This document shows positions 16,530-29,751 of a DNA stretch of 33,487 nt, one piece after another. The notes under the pieces were generated by a model. It saw only the letters and a program-made list of their open reading frames with translations. It did not search any database and was not told where the DNA came from. A program made the position numbers and the translations under genes. Each line of letters opens with the position of its first letter. The first letter of the stretch is position 1. This stretch comes from an uncultured Acidimicrobiales bacterium. GTDB taxonomy: Bacteria > Actinomycetota > Acidimicrobiia > Acidimicrobiales > SHLQ01. The stretch spans positions 1 to 33,487 of the forward strand of contig CAJQNJ010000193.1 of the NCBI GenBank assembly GCA_905479685.1. The letters are read 5' to 3'.

Positions 16530-19371
16530 GAAGACGGCTCCCCTCTGGATCGAAGTGTGCGTGGTGTTCCATGACAGTGGCGGTGGTGCGGTCGCCATTC
16601 GTGAGCACGATGGTGACTTCGGTACCCGCTGCCGAGAGCTCGGCGGGAACTTGGGCAAGTCCGATCGACTTCTCGATGGTGGGTGAGTATCGAGACGAAG
16701 TGATTCGTCCAAGGATTTCATTCGTGCCCGGCCGGACGATCTGGGATGCCTCTGGGGGAACGATGGTCGGGTCGGACATTTGCACCGAGACGAGAATCGG
16801 CAAGTCAGCCTCGAGCGACCATCCCAGTTCGGGTTTGCCCACAAAGTCATCCTTGTCCATCTTGATGAGGGCGTTGAGACCGGTCGTTGGGGCCTTGGTC
16901 AGTCCGTCGGTGTCCTGCCCGACGATGAAGTGGCCCTTCTCCAGTCGCATGATGCGCTGCGCCTCGAGGCCGAATGGGGCAATCCCCAGGTCGCTGCCTT
17001 CGGCCATCAACGTCTCCCAGACGTGAAGCCCATATCCGGCTGGTACGTGTATCTCGAAGCTGAGCTCGCCGGTGAACCCGATCCTCCACATGATGCAATC
17101 CTCGATGCCTGCGACCGCACCGGTCCGAACGTGCATGTAGTCGAACGCATCTGACGACAGGTCGACGTCGGTCAACCGGGCCAGGAGAGTTCGGGCATTG
17201 GGTCCCGCGATGTTGATCGAGGTGAACGCCGTGGTGACGGGAGTGACGTGAACGTCCCAATCGGGGTGTTCGGTCTGGAGCCAGTTCTCGGCCCATTCCC
17301 AGATCGTCCCAGCGCCAGAAGAGGTGGTCGTCATCAGCCATCGGTTCTCTGACAGACGGCCAGTGACGCCATCGTCGAGAACGACGCCGTCCTCAGCACA
17401 CATGATGCCATAGCGGACCGAACCAACCGAGAGCTTCGACCACTTGTTGGTGTAGAGGAGGTTGAGCAGTTTCGGAGTATCCGGACCCTGGAGGTCAAGT
17501 TTTCCGAGAGGCGTGACATCGATGATGCCCACGTTCTGACGTACATTACGCACCTCGGCCTGGGGGTCGCCGTAGTGCTCGGAGCGGATCCATTGCCCTG
17601 CGAGGATGGGTGTTGCGCCGTTGGCCTCGTGCCAAGGTTGAATCGATGACACCCGCTCAGGCTCGAAGATGCGTCCCGCAAGGGCTCCCAACGTCAGCGG
17701 AGCGTACGGGGGCCGCCAGATCGTCGTACCCACCTCGGCGATGGTTTCGCCGCGAGCTTCAGCCAGAACGGCCACCGTGTTGACGGTCTCGAGCTTGCCT
17801 TGTGCGGGACCCATGGTTGCTGTGGTGTAGCGCTTGAGGAGCTCGACAGAGTCGTAGCCTTCTTTCGCGGCCGAGACGAGATCCTTCGAGCTGACGTCCT
17901 CGGAGTAGTCGACGATGCCGTGGGTGGTCGAGCGATAGAGCTCAGGGTGTGGCCGCCGCTCGAGTGCACCCCGTGCGTCGATCGGCATCTCTGGTTCGGC
18001 TCCAGATACATCTGTTGCTCGGATCGTGGCTGCTTGGAGACGGTGCTTGATGGCAGCCGCTCGGCCCGCCGCAAGGAGGCCGGTCTCTCGACCGTGCTCG
18101 ACGAGTTCTTCAACAGATCCGTCACCGACCAGTCCACCGGTTGCAAGAACGTTGTCGGGAGTCTGAGCGGGGAAGAAGCGTGCTGCGGATGGGTCGTAGA
18201 CGGGCCGATCTCCCGACATGTTCAGCAGCGACGTGGGCGCCGTCCAGCCCACCGCAGTGACGCACAGATCTGCGTCGACGTAGCTGTCACCGAGGCCAAC
18301 CTTGACCTGTTCGATCTTCTTCTGGGAGCCCTTGGTCGAGTGGATCTGCTCGCCCTTCCGGCCATCGACCACTGCGGCGATCTCGACACCGGCCCGTTCG
18401 AGATCGGCGATGGCTGCATCGCCGGACTCATTTGCAGTGAACACCACCGCTCTTGTCCCGGGTTTGACGGCGTACATGTTGATCAGGCGACGAACCGCTC
18501 CGGAGAGCATGACCCCAGGCCGGTCGTTCCCGTAAAAGACATACGGCCGTTCGATCAGCCCCGCCGCAACGATGAGCGTCTTTGCGCGCGCTTTGATGAG
18601 ACGCTCGGATGCGATTGGATGTGAGCGTTGGACGATGCCCAGCCAGTTGTCCTCGTAGCGTCCCGTCACCGTGGAATCGGACAGAATTTCGACGTCTGCT
18701 GCGCGGGCGGCACGTTCGAGTTCGGCTGCTACTGCTCGGTCGGCGTCCGAGCCCCAGCGGAGGTGACCACCGAGATGGTGCTCGTGTTCGACCAGCAGGA
18801 CAGATGCGCCGGCTTCGGCAGCCGCTGTCGCCGAGGCGAGGCCTGCTGGCCCGCCTCCGGCGACGACGACGTCTGGGTGGGTGTACCGCTTGTCGAAGTA
18901 GTCCATGGACGAGTCGATGTCGACCGTGCCACCTGGTGCGAATTGTGTGAGGACTTTTGCGTAGGCAGGCCAGAGTTTTTGTGGGCGGGTGAACGTCTTG
19001 TAGTAGAAGCCGGGCGAGAGGAATCGACCGACGAGCTGGTTGGCCGACTTCACGTCGTACTCGAGTGAAGGCCACACATTCTGCGGCTCCACGGTGAGGC
19101 CCTGCTCGAGAAGTCGGTGTGCGGAGCGAACGTTGGGCTCGTCGCCAACCTGCACGAACCCGTTCGGGTCCCAGTAGTCGGCGGTGAGAAGTCCGCGCGG
19201 TCGGTGGTACTTCATCGAGCGCGACATGATGCGATTGCCATCGGCTGCGACCGCCGACGCAATCGTGTCTCCGGCGAAGCCTGTTGCAGGCCGGCCGTTC
19301 CATGTGAAGGTGAGCGGTTGGGTTCGGTCGATGACCTCACCGGACTGCTGCGGGAGCCTGCTCAGAGTCAT
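16522..19371 (-). CDS. soxA: Sarcosine oxidase subunit alpha
   Basis: 949 aa; N-terminal FTWNGRPATGFAGDTIASAVAADG, VVVAGGGPAGLASA Rossmann motif, C-terminal GcvT-like domain (FGLEAQRIMRLEKGHFIVGQDTDG). ATGA overlap with soxD. Confidence 0.96.
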   Translation of the reverse strand: MTLSRLPQQSGEVIDRTQPLTFTWNGRPATGFAGDTIASAVAADGNRIMSRSMKYHRPRGLLTADYWDPNGFVQVGDEPNVRSAHRLLEQGLTVEPQNVWPSLEYDVKSANQLVGRFLSPGFYYKTFTRPQKLWPAYAKVLTQFAPGGTVDIDSSMDYFDKRYTHPDVVVAGGGPAGLASATAAAEAGASVLLVEHEHHLGGHLRWGSDADRAVAAELERAARAADVEILSDSTVTGRYEDNWLGIVQRSHPIASERLIKARAKTLIVAAGLIERPYVFYGNDRPGVMLSGAVRRLINMYAVKPGTRAVVFTANESGDAAIADLERAGVEIAAVVDGRKGEQIHSTKGSQKKIEQVKVGLGDSYVDADLCVTAVGWTAPTSLLNMSGDRPVYDPSAARFFPAQTPDNVLATGGLVGDGSVEELVEHGRETGLLAAGRAAAIKHRLQAATIRATDVSGAEPEMPIDARGALERRPHPELYRSTTHGIVDYSEDVSSKDLVSAAKEGYDSVELLKRYTTATMGPAQGKLETVNTVAVLAEARGETIAEVGTTIWRPPYAPLTLGALAGRIFEPERVSSIQPWHEANGATPILAGQWIRSEHYGDPQAEVRNVRQNVGIIDVTPLGKLDLQGPDTPKLLNLLYTNKWSKLSVGSVRYGIMCAEDGVVLDDGVTGRLSENRWLMTTTSSGAGTIWEWAENWLQTEHPDWDVHVTPVTTAFTSINIAGPNARTLLARLTDVDLSSDAFDYMHVRTGAVAGIEDCIMWRIGFTGELSFEIHVPAGYGLHVWETLMAEGSDLGIAPFGLEAQRIMRLEKGHFIVGQDTDGLTKAPTTGLNALIKMDKDDFVGKPELGWSLEADLPILVSVQMSDPTIVPPEASQIVRPGTNEILGRITSSRYSPTIEKSIGLAQVPAELSAAGTEVTIVLTNGDRTTATVMEHHAHFDPEGSRLRA

Positions 19372-19712
19372 GATCGATCGTCCTCGCCGGGAGCGTTTGC
19401 CCCCGCTTGTGTGCCCGAGCTACCCACGGTGATCGTCGTGTATGTGCTCGTGCCGAGCTTGTTTCCAGGCAGCGGTGGGATTCGGAACTCGTTTGTGCCT
19501 TGGTGGCGTTCGATGCTGAAATATCGCCGGCAGCCGCTGCGGCAGTACCAGGATTCGGTGATCCAATCTGCGGGGTTCTCGCGAAGGTAGAGGTAGTCGC
19601 CCCATTCGGCCCGTGAGGTGGCGTTCGGGTCTGGCCGAGGGACGCTTGCTCCGAGGAGTCGGAGGTCGCTCTGATTTCGAGGTCCGCAGTGTGGGCAAGG
19701 TACGAGCAGCAT
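19368..19712 (-). CDS. soxD: Sarcosine oxidase subunit delta
   Basis: MLLVPCPHCGPRN...EWGDYLYLRENPADWITESWYCRSGCRRYFSIERH. ATG 19712 overlaps the soxB stop by 1 nt. Confidence 0.92.
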   Translation of the reverse strand: MLLVPCPHCGPRNQSDLRLLGASVPRPDPNATSRAEWGDYLYLRENPADWITESWYCRSGCRRYFSIERHQGTNEFRIPPLPGNKLGTSTYTTITVGSSGTQAGANAPGEDDRS

Positions 19713-21019
19713 CAGTGTCCCACCGCCGCTGCGCCCTTTTCGCCAACGAGTTCGCCGGTCTCGAACCGTTTGAGCGTGAAGGGCGCAATGAGCTTCGGTG
19801 TCTGTTGTGTCGCAATACATTCAGCCATCTGTTCTCCTGACACTGGGCCTGCTTTGAAGCCGTATGTTCCCCACCCGACGTCGGTGAGGTGTCCCTCCAC
19901 GGGCGTGAATCCCATGATCGGGGAGTAGTCGGGGGTCATGTCGCACAGACCTGCCCATTGGCGGAGCAACCGCATCTTCGAGATGCCCGGCATCAATTCG
20001 AGAATGTGCCCGGCGAGTTCCTCGGTGAAGCTGAGCGAACCTCGCATCGAGTATGTGGCAAGCGGATCGACGGATGCACCGAAGACGAGCTCGCCGCGGT
20101 CTGTCTGGCTCACATACACGTGGAGGGAGCCACTGACGACGACGGTCGGAAGGAAGACCTTCACGGGCTCGGTGACCGCTGCCTCGAGCGGGTGCGTGTT
20201 GATGGGAAGTTTGACGCCGGCCATGTTCGAAATGAGCGAACCCCAACCGGCTGTGCAGTTGACGACGATCGGCGCCGAGATGTCGCCTCGGTTCGTTCGA
20301 ACTCCGGTGACCTTTCCTCCGGCACCCTTTCCGTCGGGGCCTTCGCCGCCTTCACACAAGATGTCGAGCACCTCGGTCTTTTGGTGCAGGTGCACACCCC
20401 GATGATCGGCAGCTCGGGCATACCCCCAGACGACCGCGTCGTGTCGAATGATTCCACCGGGTGGATGGTGAAGCGCCCCGAGTATTGGATATCGAGGGTG
20501 CGAACTGACGTCGAGGCTCGGCGCAAGTCTCTTGACTTCGCTCGGTTCGATGACACTGCTGTCGATGCCCTGCAGTTTGTTCACCTCGGCTCGCCAGTGC
20601 ATGGTCCTGAGCGCGCTGTCGGTGTGAGCAAGTGTCATGTGTCCACGCTCGGAGAACATCACGTTGATGTTCAGATCGGCGGCCATCGAGTTGTACAGCG
20701 TGAGCGAGCGGTCGTAGAAGGCGACACCTTCAGGTGTGAGATAATTAGAGCGCACGATGGCGGTATTTCGCCCCGAACCGCCGCCGCCGAGGTACCCCTT
20801 GTCGACTACGGCGACGTTGGTGATGCCGTGATTCGTGGCCAGGTAGTAGGCGGTTGCCAGACCGTGTACACCACCGCCGATGATGACGACGTCGTAGGTG
20901 GACTCCAACTCGTGGTCACGCCAGACACGAGGCCAATCGTCGCCCGAGATTCCCTTGCGGGCGAGGGTCGTGGCGCTGTACCGGAGAGGACCTGGCGAGG
21001 AGCGTCGGAATGAGGTCAT
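19712..21019 (-). CDS. soxB: Sarcosine oxidase subunit beta
   Basis: 435 aa; DVVIIGGGVHGLATAYYLA FAD motif, GGIIRHDAVVWGYARAA, CDMTPDYSPIMG; first gene of soxBDAG. Confidence 0.95.
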   Translation of the reverse strand: MTSFRRSSPGPLRYSATTLARKGISGDDWPRVWRDHELESTYDVVIIGGGVHGLATAYYLATNHGITNVAVVDKGYLGGGGSGRNTAIVRSNYLTPEGVAFYDRSLTLYNSMAADLNINVMFSERGHMTLAHTDSALRTMHWRAEVNKLQGIDSSVIEPSEVKRLAPSLDVSSHPRYPILGALHHPPGGIIRHDAVVWGYARAADHRGVHLHQKTEVLDILCEGGEGPDGKGAGGKVTGVRTNRGDISAPIVVNCTAGWGSLISNMAGVKLPINTHPLEAAVTEPVKVFLPTVVVSGSLHVYVSQTDRGELVFGASVDPLATYSMRGSLSFTEELAGHILELMPGISKMRLLRQWAGLCDMTPDYSPIMGFTPVEGHLTDVGWGTYGFKAGPVSGEQMAECIATQQTPKLIAPFTLKRFETGELVGEKGAAAVGH

Positions 21020-24632: not shown

Positions 24633-24656
24633 GTTCCACGATGTGGAACGGTTCCA
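24633..24656. promoter_or_regulatory. Candidate operator upstream of proVWX
   Basis: GTTCCAC-GAT-GTGGAAC perfect inverted repeat, overlapping TGGAAC-G-GTTCCA: three alternating half-sites. Confidence 0.6.
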
Positions 24657-24744
24657 AAAAGTTCACGGACCACGCACGCTCGATCTCACCTCGTCGGGAT
24701 GGCCTGCTACGGTCGGTGACGAGCGACATACAGGGGACATCACA

Positions 24745-25974
24745 GTGGCCGAGGCCGACAACGCTGAAGAAATCATCCGCTTGGACAGCGTATTCAAGAT
24801 CTTCGGACCGCAGCCCCGAGGTCGAGCGCTCACGCTTGCCAAAAGCGGGATGAAGAAAAACGACGTGCAAGCAGCGACGGACCATGTGGTCGGAATGAGC
24901 GACGTGTCATTCAGCGTGAAGCGCGGCGAGACCTTCGTGCTCATGGGGCTTTCTGGATCCGGGAAGTCAACGGCAATTCGAACTGTCAACAAACTGTTCG
25001 AGATCACCGATGGTCACGTGTATGTCGATGGCGTCGACGTCCAGGCCCTGAGCGGGCCACCGTTACAGCAGTTTCGTCGCGAGAAGATGGGAATGGTGTT
25101 CCAGCACTTTGCGCTCTTCCCACACCGTTCGGTGATCGACAACACGGGCTACGGGCTAAAAGTACAAAAGGTCGACAAGGAAGAACGAGATGCTGCGTCC
25201 CTCGAGGCGCTGCGGTTGGTGGGTCTCGAGTCTTTCGCCCACAACAGTCCACGGCAGCTCTCTGGTGGTATGCAACAGCGCGTCGGGTTGGCTCGTGCGC
25301 TGGCCTCGGACCCCGACATCTTGTTGATGGACGAGGCATTCTCGGCTCTTGATCCGTTGATCCGTCGTCAAATGCAGGACGAGATGATGGAGATCAACAA
25401 GCAGCTTCAGAAGACGATTCTGTTCATCACTCACGATTTGAATGAGGCGCTGCGAATCGGTGATCGCGTGTGCATCATGAAGGACGGCGCAGTCGTACAG
25501 ATCGGTACGCCGGAGGAAATCCTGACACAGCCAGCAACTGGATATGTAGCTGAGTTCGTGCAGGATGTCGATCAAGGTCGAGTCATCGATGTCGAGACGA
25601 TCATGGCACACCCGATCGAGCTGAGTACGACCATGACGCTCGCTCAAGCCGTCGAGAAGATGGGTGAGACAAGAGGCCAGTTCGTGGTCGATGGTCACGG
25701 TCGTCCGACGGGGCTCCTCACCCAGGAAGATGCGATGCGGGCGATGATGATGGGTACGACAGATGTTGCCTCGGCACTTCGAATCGATTTCGACTCGACG
25801 ACCGGGGAAAAGACCTTCAATGAGATCTACGCGTCGGCTGGCCGGGGTCTTGCATTGGCCGTGGTCGATGACGCAGGAGTGTTGATCGGCGTTCTGCATC
25901 CGCGCGAGATGATGGAAGAGATGGGCCGTGTCGAGCAGTTGATAGATGGCTTCGAGCGAGAGGTGTTCATGTAA
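24745..25974 (+). CDS. proV: Glycine betaine/proline ABC transporter ATP-binding protein with CBS-like C-terminus
   Basis: Walker A GLSGSGKST, signature QLSGGMQQR, Walker B ILLMDEAFSALDP; C-terminal CBS-like region. GTG 24745 after AGGGGA preferred over ORF-track 24643. Confidence 0.92.
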   Translation: MAEADNAEEIIRLDSVFKIFGPQPRGRALTLAKSGMKKNDVQAATDHVVGMSDVSFSVKRGETFVLMGLSGSGKSTAIRTVNKLFEITDGHVYVDGVDVQALSGPPLQQFRREKMGMVFQHFALFPHRSVIDNTGYGLKVQKVDKEERDAASLEALRLVGLESFAHNSPRQLSGGMQQRVGLARALASDPDILLMDEAFSALDPLIRRQMQDEMMEINKQLQKTILFITHDLNEALRIGDRVCIMKDGAVVQIGTPEEILTQPATGYVAEFVQDVDQGRVIDVETIMAHPIELSTTMTLAQAVEKMGETRGQFVVDGHGRPTGLLTQEDAMRAMMMGTTDVASALRIDFDSTTGEKTFNEIYASAGRGLALAVVDDAGVLIGVLHPREMMEEMGRVEQLIDGFEREVFM

Positions 25975-28376
25975 TGGGCCTGCTATTTGCACAAGACAGC
26001 CTGGAAGAGACGCCGGGGTTTTTCGAGAACACCTGGCCGGAGTCTTTTCGCTTTCCGTTTGGTGAGTGGCTCAAGGAGCTCGTGTTCTGGGCGGTGAACA
26101 ACCCGGTCACCTCGACGATCGGTGACATCATCGAGTGGCCGTTCAGCACGTTCTTCGATTTGATCATGAGTGAGCAGGCGGGACGCGATTCGATCATGAC
26201 CGTTCCGTGGGTGTGGCTGGTCATTGCGGTCTTTGTCGTCGCTTCGTTCACTCGGAACACGCGTATCGGGCTGGCGTGTGCGGCGATGCTCGCAATGTGC
26301 GGTTTCCTCGGCGCCGAGTATTGGACCGAGACCGCGAAGACGATCGGCATGATCCTCGTGTCGGTCACGTTGTGCGCAGTCGTGGGGATCCCGCTCGGGA
26401 TTCTGTCGGGCCGCTTCGATTCGATCTGGAGTGTGGTTCGACCCACGCTCGACGCCATGCAGGTTGTCCATTCGTTCGTGTTCATGTTGCCGTTCATTTT
26501 CTTCTTCGGCCTGGGCAACGTTTCTGCGACGATGGTGACGATGGTGTTCGCTCTACCGCCCCTGGTGCGACTCACCAATCTCGGAATTCGGCAGGTGCCA
26601 GAAGACGTTGTCGAAGCGTCACGCGCGTACGGGGCGACCGAGCTTCGTGTGCTCACCGATGTGCAGCTGCCGCTCGCTCGACCTGCAATCATGACAGGCC
26701 TCAACCAGACGCTTCTGCTGGCGATCTCGATGCTCGGTATCGCTGCTCTGATGGGTGCGGGCGGTCTCGGCCGTCTCCTGTTCCGGGCGATCAACAACTT
26801 GAATCTCGGTCTCGCAGCATCTGCTGGCCTCGCATTCTTCTTGGTAGCAGTGATCCTCGACCGCATTTCACAGACCGAAGCCCAGGACGGCGTGAGCCTC
26901 TTGACAAAAATTCGCCAAGCGTTCGTCTATCGAGCCGATCCGCAAGGACTGCTCGATGCCCAAGCCGAACAGGCCCTTGTGGTCGAAGACGACGCGGTCA
27001 CCGAGAGGCTTGCGGCGGTGAACGGTGGCGAACGAGCCGGTCTGTTGATCGCTCTGGCTGGTTTCGGACTGACTCTTGTGTCGCTGTTCATGACGTGGGC
27101 AAATGATGCAGGGTTGGTGTCGAGTTATGGACGGTTTGCCGACGAGAACCTCGAAGGACTCTCGTTCAACGGATTCGAAGCGTCGGGTGGCACGTTCTAC
27201 GGTGTGATCCTGGGCATCTTCGCTGTCCTCGGTCTTCTTGCGAGTATCCGCCCCATGTTGTCCTTCCCCGAGGGAATCGGCCGCACGTTGCTGAAGGGCC
27301 AGGGCTACCTCCTTGCCGGCATCGGAGCGGTCATCGTCGTGATCTGGCTCTTGAACGTCTTTGGAATATCGACCGGTCCTCTCGCCGCCATTGGGCTGTG
27401 GATGTTCGCAATCTGTGTTGCCCTGATCTTGATCGAGACCTTCATGGGCGGCACGCCACGACTTGGTGCTGACGGAGCGCTCATCTCCTCGATCGGTGTG
27501 CTGGGAGCAGCATTGGGCTATGCCGTGCTTCAGCCGACAGACTGGGTTCCGAACTACTCTCACGGACCTGGTGTCATCCTGGCCGTGATCGGCGGAGTGA
27601 TCGCAGTTGTCGGATCCGCGCTGGCAGTTCTTCGGGCGCCGTACGGACCCCGGCGTCCTTTGCCAATCGACATTTCCTGGGGTCGCGTGGTGGCGTCGGG
27701 CTTTGCGCTCCTCATTATCGTCGGCTCAGCATTCGGCGAGGGCGAGCGTGATGACGCAAACGGTGGCTGGGGTTGGTACTTCGACGAGCGAGTCGAGTCG
27801 ATTCAGCGAGCATCGTCGGAGGTGCCGCAAGACATCGCCGAAGAGATCGAACGACTGCGTGATGAAGCTGGCGACGACATCAACAAGCAGATTGCGAACG
27901 CGCAAACAATCACGAACTTGATGAACTCCGTACAGACGGGGAGCAAGGTGATCTACAGCGGCGTTGATCCCGAAGGTCCAGGCCTCGGTTGGATTTCGAT
28001 GGCGCTTGCTGCGCTCGCTGTGGTCTTCTCGATTCCAGCAAGTGGTCTCTTTGGCGGTGGTGAGCAGAGGCGTTGGAGAGCCTCCGCCCTGCTCGCTGGA
28101 ACGGGTCTGGCGATCATGATCGTCCCCATGGCATTCATCTTGGGGATCGTGCGTGTGGGCACAGGTTCGACGACGCTCGGTGGTATCGGTGCGTTCATGA
28201 CATTCATTGCGGGCTTCCTGGTGTTCTCGAGCGGTCGGAGCGTCGTGAACGAGTTCCGTCGTCGTAAGATCTTCTCCGATGTTGCGCACCTCGAGGCTGC
28301 GAGAATTGCTGCCGATGAGGCCGACCTGGTCGAGCTTCCTGAGCTACACCTTGAAGAGGTAATAGGAGAGGTCTAG
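25974..28376 (+). CDS. proW: Glycine betaine ABC transporter permease with large extra multi-TM C-terminal module
   Basis: N-terminal ~300 aa ProW-type permease including EASRAYGATELRVLTDVQLPLARPAIMTG; remaining ~490 aa contain about 10 further hydrophobic segments. TAATG overlap with proV. Confidence 0.9.
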   Translation: MGLLFAQDSLEETPGFFENTWPESFRFPFGEWLKELVFWAVNNPVTSTIGDIIEWPFSTFFDLIMSEQAGRDSIMTVPWVWLVIAVFVVASFTRNTRIGLACAAMLAMCGFLGAEYWTETAKTIGMILVSVTLCAVVGIPLGILSGRFDSIWSVVRPTLDAMQVVHSFVFMLPFIFFFGLGNVSATMVTMVFALPPLVRLTNLGIRQVPEDVVEASRAYGATELRVLTDVQLPLARPAIMTGLNQTLLLAISMLGIAALMGAGGLGRLLFRAINNLNLGLAASAGLAFFLVAVILDRISQTEAQDGVSLLTKIRQAFVYRADPQGLLDAQAEQALVVEDDAVTERLAAVNGGERAGLLIALAGFGLTLVSLFMTWANDAGLVSSYGRFADENLEGLSFNGFEASGGTFYGVILGIFAVLGLLASIRPMLSFPEGIGRTLLKGQGYLLAGIGAVIVVIWLLNVFGISTGPLAAIGLWMFAICVALILIETFMGGTPRLGADGALISSIGVLGAALGYAVLQPTDWVPNYSHGPGVILAVIGGVIAVVGSALAVLRAPYGPRRPLPIDISWGRVVASGFALLIIVGSAFGEGERDDANGGWGWYFDERVESIQRASSEVPQDIAEEIERLRDEAGDDINKQIANAQTITNLMNSVQTGSKVIYSGVDPEGPGLGWISMALAALAVVFSIPASGLFGGGEQRRWRASALLAGTGLAIMIVPMAFILGIVRVGTGSTTLGGIGAFMTFIAGFLVFSSGRSVVNEFRRRKIFSDVAHLEAARIAADEADLVELPELHLEEVIGEV

Positions 28377-28399
28377 CGGAGACGCTGACTGATCAGATA

Positions 28400-28461
28400 G
28401 ATCTGGGGCAATGCAACACCAGGTATCGCGCGACCAATATTGCCCCGGATCGTGCGATACC
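28400..28461 (+). promoter_or_regulatory. Two interleaved inverted repeats in the proW-proX gap
   Basis: GATCTGGGGCAAT (28400-28412) with ATTGCCCCGGATC (28439-28451); GGTATCGCGCG (28422-28432) with CGTGCGATACC (28451-28461). Confidence 0.75.
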
Positions 28462-28497
28462 GTTGATAGGACAACATCCCAAGGAGGGGATTACTTA

Positions 28498-29751
28498 ATG
28501 AAGACTACAAAGAAGAGCCTCTGGCTCGCTTTGCTTACGATCGTGGCACTGTTCGCAGTGTCATGTGGCAGCGATGCCAGCGATGTAGCATCCGACGTCG
28601 AAGACGAAGTGGCAGACGCTGTCGATGAGGTCGAAGACGTCGTGGAAGACGCTGTCGATGAGGTCGAAGACGTCGCCGAAGACGCTGTCGATGAGGTCGA
28701 AGACGTCGTGGAAGACGTCGAAGACGCCATGGCTGACCTGCCAGGCGACGGCAAAGCCGCAACCATGGGCCGTGCAAACTGGTCATCGGGATACGTGCAG
28801 GCCGAAATCCTTCACAACCTGCTCGAGGAGATCGGCTATGACATCTCGAGCCCAGCTGACAATGAGTTCGCTCCGGACCTGGGATACCAGGCAATGGCAA
28901 CTGGTGAGATCGATTTCTGGGCCAACAGCTGGTACCCAGGACACCTGAGCTGGTGGGCGGGTGAACTTCCTGACGGCTCGGAGATTGGCGACAACCTCGA
29001 ACGTCTCGAAGGCTCTCTGATGCCCGGTGGGGGACTTCAGGGATACCTCGTGACCAAGTCATGGGCTGAGGACAACGGAGTCACGACGATCGACCAGATC
29101 AACGCAGACGAGGCTCTTTGGAGCCAGCTCGACTCGGACGGCAACGGCCAAGGCGAAATCTATGGTTGCCCAGAGGACTGGACCTGCGACGACATCATCA
29201 CCGCAACGATCGAGTTCGCTGGTTGGACGCAAATTGAGCAGACCCAGGCAGGCTACGACGCCATGTTCGCCGAGTTCTTGACAAAGGCACAGGCTGGAGA
29301 GCCAGCAATCATCTACACGTGGACCCCGACCTCGTACCTCGCCCAGGCAATCCCCGGCGAGACCACGATGTGGATCTCCACCGATGATGCTTCGGTGCTC
29401 GACGACTCGAACCCAACTGGTGCTGAAGGTGGCGAGGCGTATGATCAAGGCGAAGGCTACAAGGGCCTCGGCGATGACACTTGCCTCCAGGGTCCTGACG
29501 GATGTCAGACCGGCTGGGAAGCTGCGGACATCGAGATCACGGCAAACAAGGCATGGTTGGCTGACAACCCCGCCGCTCGTGAGTTGTTCAACCAATTCAA
29601 GCCCGCGCTGATCGACCTCGCCATTGCTGGTGTTGCGCTCGATGCTTCCGACGGTTCGACTGCTGCAGTCGAGGGGATCGCAGCTGATTGGATCGAGGAC
29701 AATCGGGATCTGGCAGACAGCTGGGTCACCGCAGCGCTCGCCGCAGGCTGA
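28498..29751 (+). CDS. proX: Glycine betaine ABC transporter substrate-binding lipoprotein
   Basis: Lipobox LFAVSCGSD; ProX-like [32 protein letters not shown]. Strong AAGGAGG Shine-Dalgarno at 28481. Confidence 0.92.
28618..28716 (+). repeat. 3 x 33-bp in-frame tandem repeat encoding [11 protein letters not shown]
   Basis: Units 28618-28650, 28651-28683, 28684-28716: gctgtcgatgaggtcgaagacgtcgtggaagac; unit 2 differs at gtcgccgaa (V to A). Partial copies flank it. Confidence 0.97.

Follow-up and report, generated by a model that had tools for sequence, protein, structure and literature searches.

A covariation-supported RNA pseudoknot between proW and proX that may raise binding-protein output in uncultured Acidimicrobiales

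Here we describe a structured RNA element that lies between two genes of an operon for the uptake of glycine betaine. The window, by which we mean the whole stretch of DNA that was analysed (33,487 nucleotides), is a contig from the genome of an uncultured Acidimicrobiales bacterium (3.2 Mb, 85% complete), and the relatives with which it is compared are also MAGs of uncultured Acidimicrobiales. Three genes on the forward strand encode the proV-like ATPase, the proW-like permease and the substrate-binding lipoprotein ProX, and the gap between proW and proX measures 121 nt (28377-28497). The features of this region are collected in Table 1.

Table 1. Genes and RNA features of the proVWX region, in window coordinates
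Feature	Position	Strand	Basis or remark
proV-like ATPase (ABC_tran + CBS)	24643..25974	+	ORF; Pfam PF00005 E 5.7e-32, PF00571 E 6.1e-11
proW-like permease (BPD_transp_1), 800 aa	25974..28376	+	ORF; Pfam PF00528 E 2.8e-22; stop codon 28374-28376
Pseudoknot RNA element	28399..28464	+	covariance model R1, 76.5 bits (window sequence in R1 training set); R2 E 4.6e-4
Stem A core, 5' arm CTGGGGC	28403..28409	+	pairs with 28442-28448; window extension of A to 28400-28413
Loop 1, 12 nt	28410..28421	+	3' end carries an ACC stretch that is frequent in group 1
Stem B, 5' arm GGTATCGCGC	28422..28431	+	covariation
Loop 2, 10 nt	28432..28441	+	GACC at 28432-28435 invariant in 10/10 aligned group 1 sequences
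Stem A core, 3' arm GCCCCGG	28442..28448	+	
Loop 3	28449..28451	+	3 nt between conserved cores; 0 nt with both stems fully extended
Stem B, 3' arm GTGCGATACC	28452..28461	+	covariation
Small hairpin GTTG-ATAGGA-CAAC	28462..28475	+	MFE fold
SD hairpin ATCCC-AAGGAG-GGGAT, SD in loop	28476..28491	+	sequence; MFE fold
proX, OpuAC-family glycine betaine substrate-binding lipoprotein	28498..29751	+	ORF, ATG 28498; Pfam PF04069 E 1.5e-28

An earlier note on this DNA had described two long inverted repeats, interleaved with one another, in the proW-proX gap, and both are present exactly as described: stem A is formed by GATCTGGGGCAAT (28400-28412) and ATTGCCCCGGATC (28439-28451), and stem B by GGTATCGCGCG (28422-28432) and CGTGCGATACC (28451-28461). 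When they are extended as far as the window sequence permits, the stems reach 14 and 12 pairs, overlap by 2 nt at the A'/B' border and leave no third loop (L3 = 0). The core conserved among the relatives is shorter than these arms, with 7 bp in A (28403-28409/28442-28448) and 10 bp in B (28422-28431/28452-28461), and in the window the two cores do not overlap and are joined by loops of 12, 10 and 3 nt. Dinucleotide shuffles of the 121-nt gap, in which the stems were allowed the same small overlap as in the window itself, produced interleaved helices with 13 or more and 11 or more pairs in 0 of 3000 cases, and two interleaved helices of at least 10 pairs each in 1 of 3000; a single helix of at least 13 pairs appeared in 4 of 3000. 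A consensus scan of 28377-28497 found no sigma-70-like promoter and no terminator-like site, and nowhere in the gap is a GC-rich hairpin followed by the U-tract of an intrinsic terminator.

Downstream of the element, the Shine-Dalgarno (SD) sequence of proX lies about 20 nt from the end of stem B and about 80 nt from the start of stem A. The earlier note had placed this SD in a small loop, and the hairpin does exist in the window (28476-28491), but such hairpins are only modestly enriched before proX (36/61, vs 30/88 for other genes at the same loci); judged by this distribution, the SD hairpin is not specific to the pseudoknot element. The small hairpin just upstream of it is not evident in the other group 1 sequences when these are compared by eye.

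For the comparison, proX homologues were gathered from genomes and contigs, and the sequence from the proW stop to the proX start was compared among them, all element sequences coming from MAG contigs. The order A-B-A'-B' recurs at the same place in the proW-proX gap at 15 loci, namely the window and 14 from related Acidimicrobiales, which represent 13 distinct pseudoknot sequences since the elements of L033 and L034 are identical and L039 equals L064 over the pseudoknot. Group 1 is made up of the window, L033, L034, L035, L036, L038, L039, L041, L042, L044 and L064, and the distant group 2 of L046, L049, L051 and L055. Across the 10 aligned sequences of group 1, stem A reads CTGGGGC/GCCCC(G/A)G, and the GACC that follows the 5' arm of stem B is found in every one (10/10). 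Group 2 has CTGGGC/GCCCAG in stem A, a matched loss of one base per arm, together with a shorter stem B and an outer helix, CATACC/GGTATG, that carries a small inserted hairpin; GACC is absent from its loop 2 as a conserved feature. An extension of proX through the element from an upstream in-frame ATG (28411) was also considered, and a conserved reading frame was excluded by inspection, because gaps (101-121 nt in the relatives) and loops differ in length by non-multiples of three.

Compensatory changes in the orthologous gaps strongly support what the earlier note had proposed, an RNA element in pseudoknot order before proX. The sequence of stem B turns over wholesale across the relatives while its pairing is kept. 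In a MAFFT alignment of group 1, 89.7% of cells are paired, as against 36-49% in slid registers; there are 17 double-change cells vs 5.0 in shuffles, the covariation score is 0.340 vs 0.140 (a value reached by 0/500 shuffles), and 7 of the 13 stem B pairs have changed on both sides. When the arms of stem B are swapped among 10 divergent sequences of a hand-made, structure-guided alignment of all 14, pairing falls from 81/100 with the own partner to a mean of 50.5, and 0/100000 swaps equal the original. Since kinship among sequences can itself mimic covariation, we applied a phylogeny-aware null that takes the proX protein tree branch by branch and places the substitutions of each branch at random columns. 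In the hand-made alignment, which is biased in favour of the structure (the group 1 MAFFT test and the model transfer are less so), 116 of 140 stem B cells are paired vs 64 +/- 9 under this null, and the observed values of the G statistic, of paired cells and of covariation were each attained in 0/1000 replays. The transfer used a covariance model, R2, trained solely on the four sequences of group 2, without group 1; it recovers, at the correct positions, L033/L034 (3.9e-6), the window (4.6e-4), L038 (0.0015) and L042 (0.0032). Stem A hardly varies and its support is for that reason thinner, consisting of the matched change from 7 bp to 6 bp on both arms and a U-G/U-A exchange, and covariation within the four sequences of group 2 alone is suggestive only. 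RNAalifold applied to group 1 returns stem A alone, because it cannot draw pseudoknots. The element thus has two helices in the order A-B-A'-B', each with comparative support and with cores that do not overlap, as in an H-type pseudoknot; from the covariation, the R2 recovery and the shuffle results together, its identity as a conserved RNA pseudoknot, and neither chance nor DNA operators, is strongly supported.

The element keeps to one genomic setting. Among the sequences searched, the arrangement is kept across several Acidimicrobiales lineages and only where proX follows proW. Scans with R1 (397 genomes of the order and 396 of the phylum) gave one strong match per genome in 8 of the 11 genomes of the genus, those with a close proX, and a further match in a genome from another family (G226). 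Apart from proW-proX sites, the genome scans with R1 and R2 (R2 over 397 order and 296 class genomes) returned only weak matches, the strongest of which stand in no proX context and look protein-coding by inspection; over the 296 class genomes R2 gave zero matches at a strict cut-off at which even the known window site is missed. The window's genome yielded no second copy, solo proX paralogues were not found to be preceded by the element, and no pseudoknot of A-B-A'-B' form was seen at L052, L053, L056-L061, L066 or more distant loci. On the proX tree, whose deep branches are poorly supported, the pseudoknot loci fall within one clade, alongside solo proX copies and the element-free L052 and L056-L058. 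The simplest reading of these sequences would be one origin followed by loss in the duplicated solo proX genes and in the sub-clade with promoter-like gaps, a pattern that implies that the element goes with proX downstream of proW.

Other arrangements were observed in gaps that have no such pseudoknot. Those of L052 and L056-L058 contain a promoter-like GCTATACT/GCTAAACT, joined in L056-L058 by the palindrome TGTGACGTxAGTCAC, which gives the impression that proX is served there by a regulated promoter of its own. A CRP-like TGTGA-N6-TCACA site occurs in the proW-proX gap of L059 and L060, and before proX in L043 and L048 a different pair of hairpins is found, one of them a near-perfect palindrome with a compensatory change (CCGCAGAATTCTGCGG / CCGCGGAATTCCGCGG).

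That the element fits no recognised riboswitch, as had been suggested, is borne out by Rfam 15, which gave no match to the whole window at the gathering threshold, none to 28300-28600 at E <= 10, and only chance-level matches in 13 relatives, none of them over the element. The element is a covariation-supported structured RNA family that Rfam does not match, from a clade in which little RNA regulation is known, and we found no description of a proW-proX pseudoknot element in the open-access literature. The small H-type pseudoknot riboswitches (SAM-II, preQ1, guanidine-III) also set two interleaved helices within a short leader, but in these L2 is short or absent and L3 is longer, whereas the Acidimicrobiales element has an L2 of 6-12 nt and an L3 of 1-3 nt in the core register and has no Rfam match even at E 10. 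A similar gene context is known for the proX motif (SRC-29-1), a riboswitch candidate of Spiribacter and saltwater metagenomes found almost exclusively before the glycine/proline betaine transporter gene proX (PMC8632094). Both stand directly before a betaine transporter gene called proX, which in the window encodes an OpuAC domain, and have the ribosome binding site near or in a helix; in the proX motif, however, that site is occluded by part of stem P2, and its text mentions no pseudoknot, whereas the element described here, distinguished from it by the published description only, is an A-B-A'-B' pseudoknot between proW and proX, apart from an SD that sits in the loop of a separate hairpin and with which A' can pair by 3-6 bp. 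Intercistronic stem-loops are also known to set the excess of binding protein in ABC importer operons, including by selective RNA processing and stabilisation (PMC9045158, PMC8219983, PMC10311766). These share with the present element a structured RNA between cistrons and, probably, the same need for more binding protein than translocator. They follow the favoured gene, however, and work by terminating transcription internally or by stabilising a 3' end, whereas the Acidimicrobiales element is a pseudoknot that precedes proX and lacks a U-tract.

The earlier note had considered the junctions too strained for both full stems and had preferred a two-state switch. The strain applies to the extension of stem A from 7 to 14 bp, which is specific to the window, but not to the conserved cores, whose spacing admits both helices. 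Each of the 14 sequences permits a drawing in which A (6-14 bp) and B (5-14 bp) stay clear of one another, with loops of 8-18, 6-13 and 0-3 nt, and stem A measures 6-10 bp in the relatives and 14 in the window alone. An L3 of so few nucleotides forces helix A, at its outer end, directly against the inner end of B; by a geometric estimate L2 would then span helix A and L1 both helices, which appears feasible for an A of 7-8 bp, and the window's 14-bp stem A (L1 8, L2 6, L3 0) is, in the same model, geometrically strained. Two mutually exclusive hairpins in place of a pseudoknot would suit the overlap that arises at the A'/B' border once the window's stems are extended in full, and also the nested folding of the window, which selects stem B alone, but a switch of this kind is dispensable, since the cores of A and B overlap in 0/14 sequences and are retained jointly in 15/15 loci, and we regard it as quite unlikely. 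Two overlapping protein operators on the DNA, serving a regulator of an internal promoter, are highly improbable: other sister loci do seem, by eye, to carry promoter- and CRP-like sites in the gap, yet stem B conserves its pairing over its sequence, the distance between the A arms is variable, and the window gap lacks a sigma-70-like promoter in the consensus scan. As for chance repeats, nothing beyond GC content speaks in their favour; they are refuted by the covariation, and the R2 recovery, the arm swaps, the phylogeny-aware null and the gap shuffles leave them scarcely credible.

We give about an even chance to the reading that this is a conserved pseudoknotted cis-acting RNA in the proVWX mRNA, most likely a structural barrier that raises proX output over ProVW or insulates it from theirs. 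The gene acted on is presumably proX, and the element probably sets the amount of substrate-binding protein that is made. The folded pseudoknot would act in cis on proX alone, as a barrier by which the 5' portion of the proX transcript is delimited or shielded while its SD region stays separately accessible, and the outcome would be a lipid-anchored binding protein in excess of the ProVW transporter. Two points favour this role: binding proteins are generally needed in excess over the translocator (PMC9045158), and solo proX genes were not found to be preceded by the element. For ABC importers in general it is an open question how a single operon yields binding protein in excess of translocator, and here a compact, testable element sits exactly at the junction concerned. 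Against the necessity of such a barrier, the sister lineages L052 and L056-L058 do without the element, and a mere barrier is disfavoured in that it needs no invariant stem A or loop-2 GACC, features that hint at a specific partner.

That partner might be a ligand. In a riboswitch, the pseudoknot would be a candidate aptamer whose signal, be it an osmoprotectant, an ion or something else, controls proX translation; A' (CCCC) could, for example, either stay in stem A or pair with the SD's GGGG. This is possible, though we hold it doubtful. Within group 1, stem A and the GACC of loop 2 do not vary although B changes freely, the pattern that a binding core should show; no argument speaks more strongly for a ligand or protein and against a purely passive role, but GACC is not retained in group 2. 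The downstream gene serves osmoprotectant or betaine uptake, and a different proX-leader candidate is known in Spiribacter (PMC8632094). Pairing of 3-6 bp between A' and the SD is predicted in 14/14 sequences (-5.4 to -10.6 kcal/mol), weak evidence since a C-run always pairs somewhat with the G-run of an SD. Set against a riboswitch are the single gene context in about 800 order- and phylum-level genomes (R1), the absence before solo proX paralogues, and the lack of a terminator platform in the gap by consensus scan. We think it improbable, on these sequences, that the element is a new class, a compact pseudoknot that senses an osmoprotectant or intracellular ion strength directly and, placed within the operon of a betaine ABC importer, adjusts its binding protein and nothing else; were the element to sense an osmolyte or ion, osmotic control would have a new class of riboswitch. 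The partner might otherwise be a protein that binds RNA, or a ribonuclease, RNase III for instance, with autoregulation or osmotic control of proX mRNA decay, which we consider unlikely; the invariant helix A and loop nucleotides would suit protein contact, and we know of no protein partner of the proW-proX pseudoknot. In Escherichia coli under osmotic stress, RNase III controls the proU, betT and bdm mRNAs (PMC4067347), a comparable case in which mRNA structure governs genes for osmoprotectant uptake after transcription, but one that involves long RNase III stems and no pseudoknot, and the helices of 5-14 bp found here are below the 22-bp cleavage minimum given in that work.

Some further features of the window were observed in passing. 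About 500 residues of ProW extend beyond the permease domain without a Pfam match and apparently form more membrane spans. In ProX, the linker that joins the lipobox to the OpuAC domain contains an acidic tandem repeat, VEDxVEDAVDE... (window 28590-28740), and the ProX linkers of the relatives are other Asp/Glu-rich low-complexity stretches. On the minus strand, at 16522-21019, genes resemble by eye parts of a sarcosine/dimethylglycine oxidase, which suggests that glycine betaine is also a food source.
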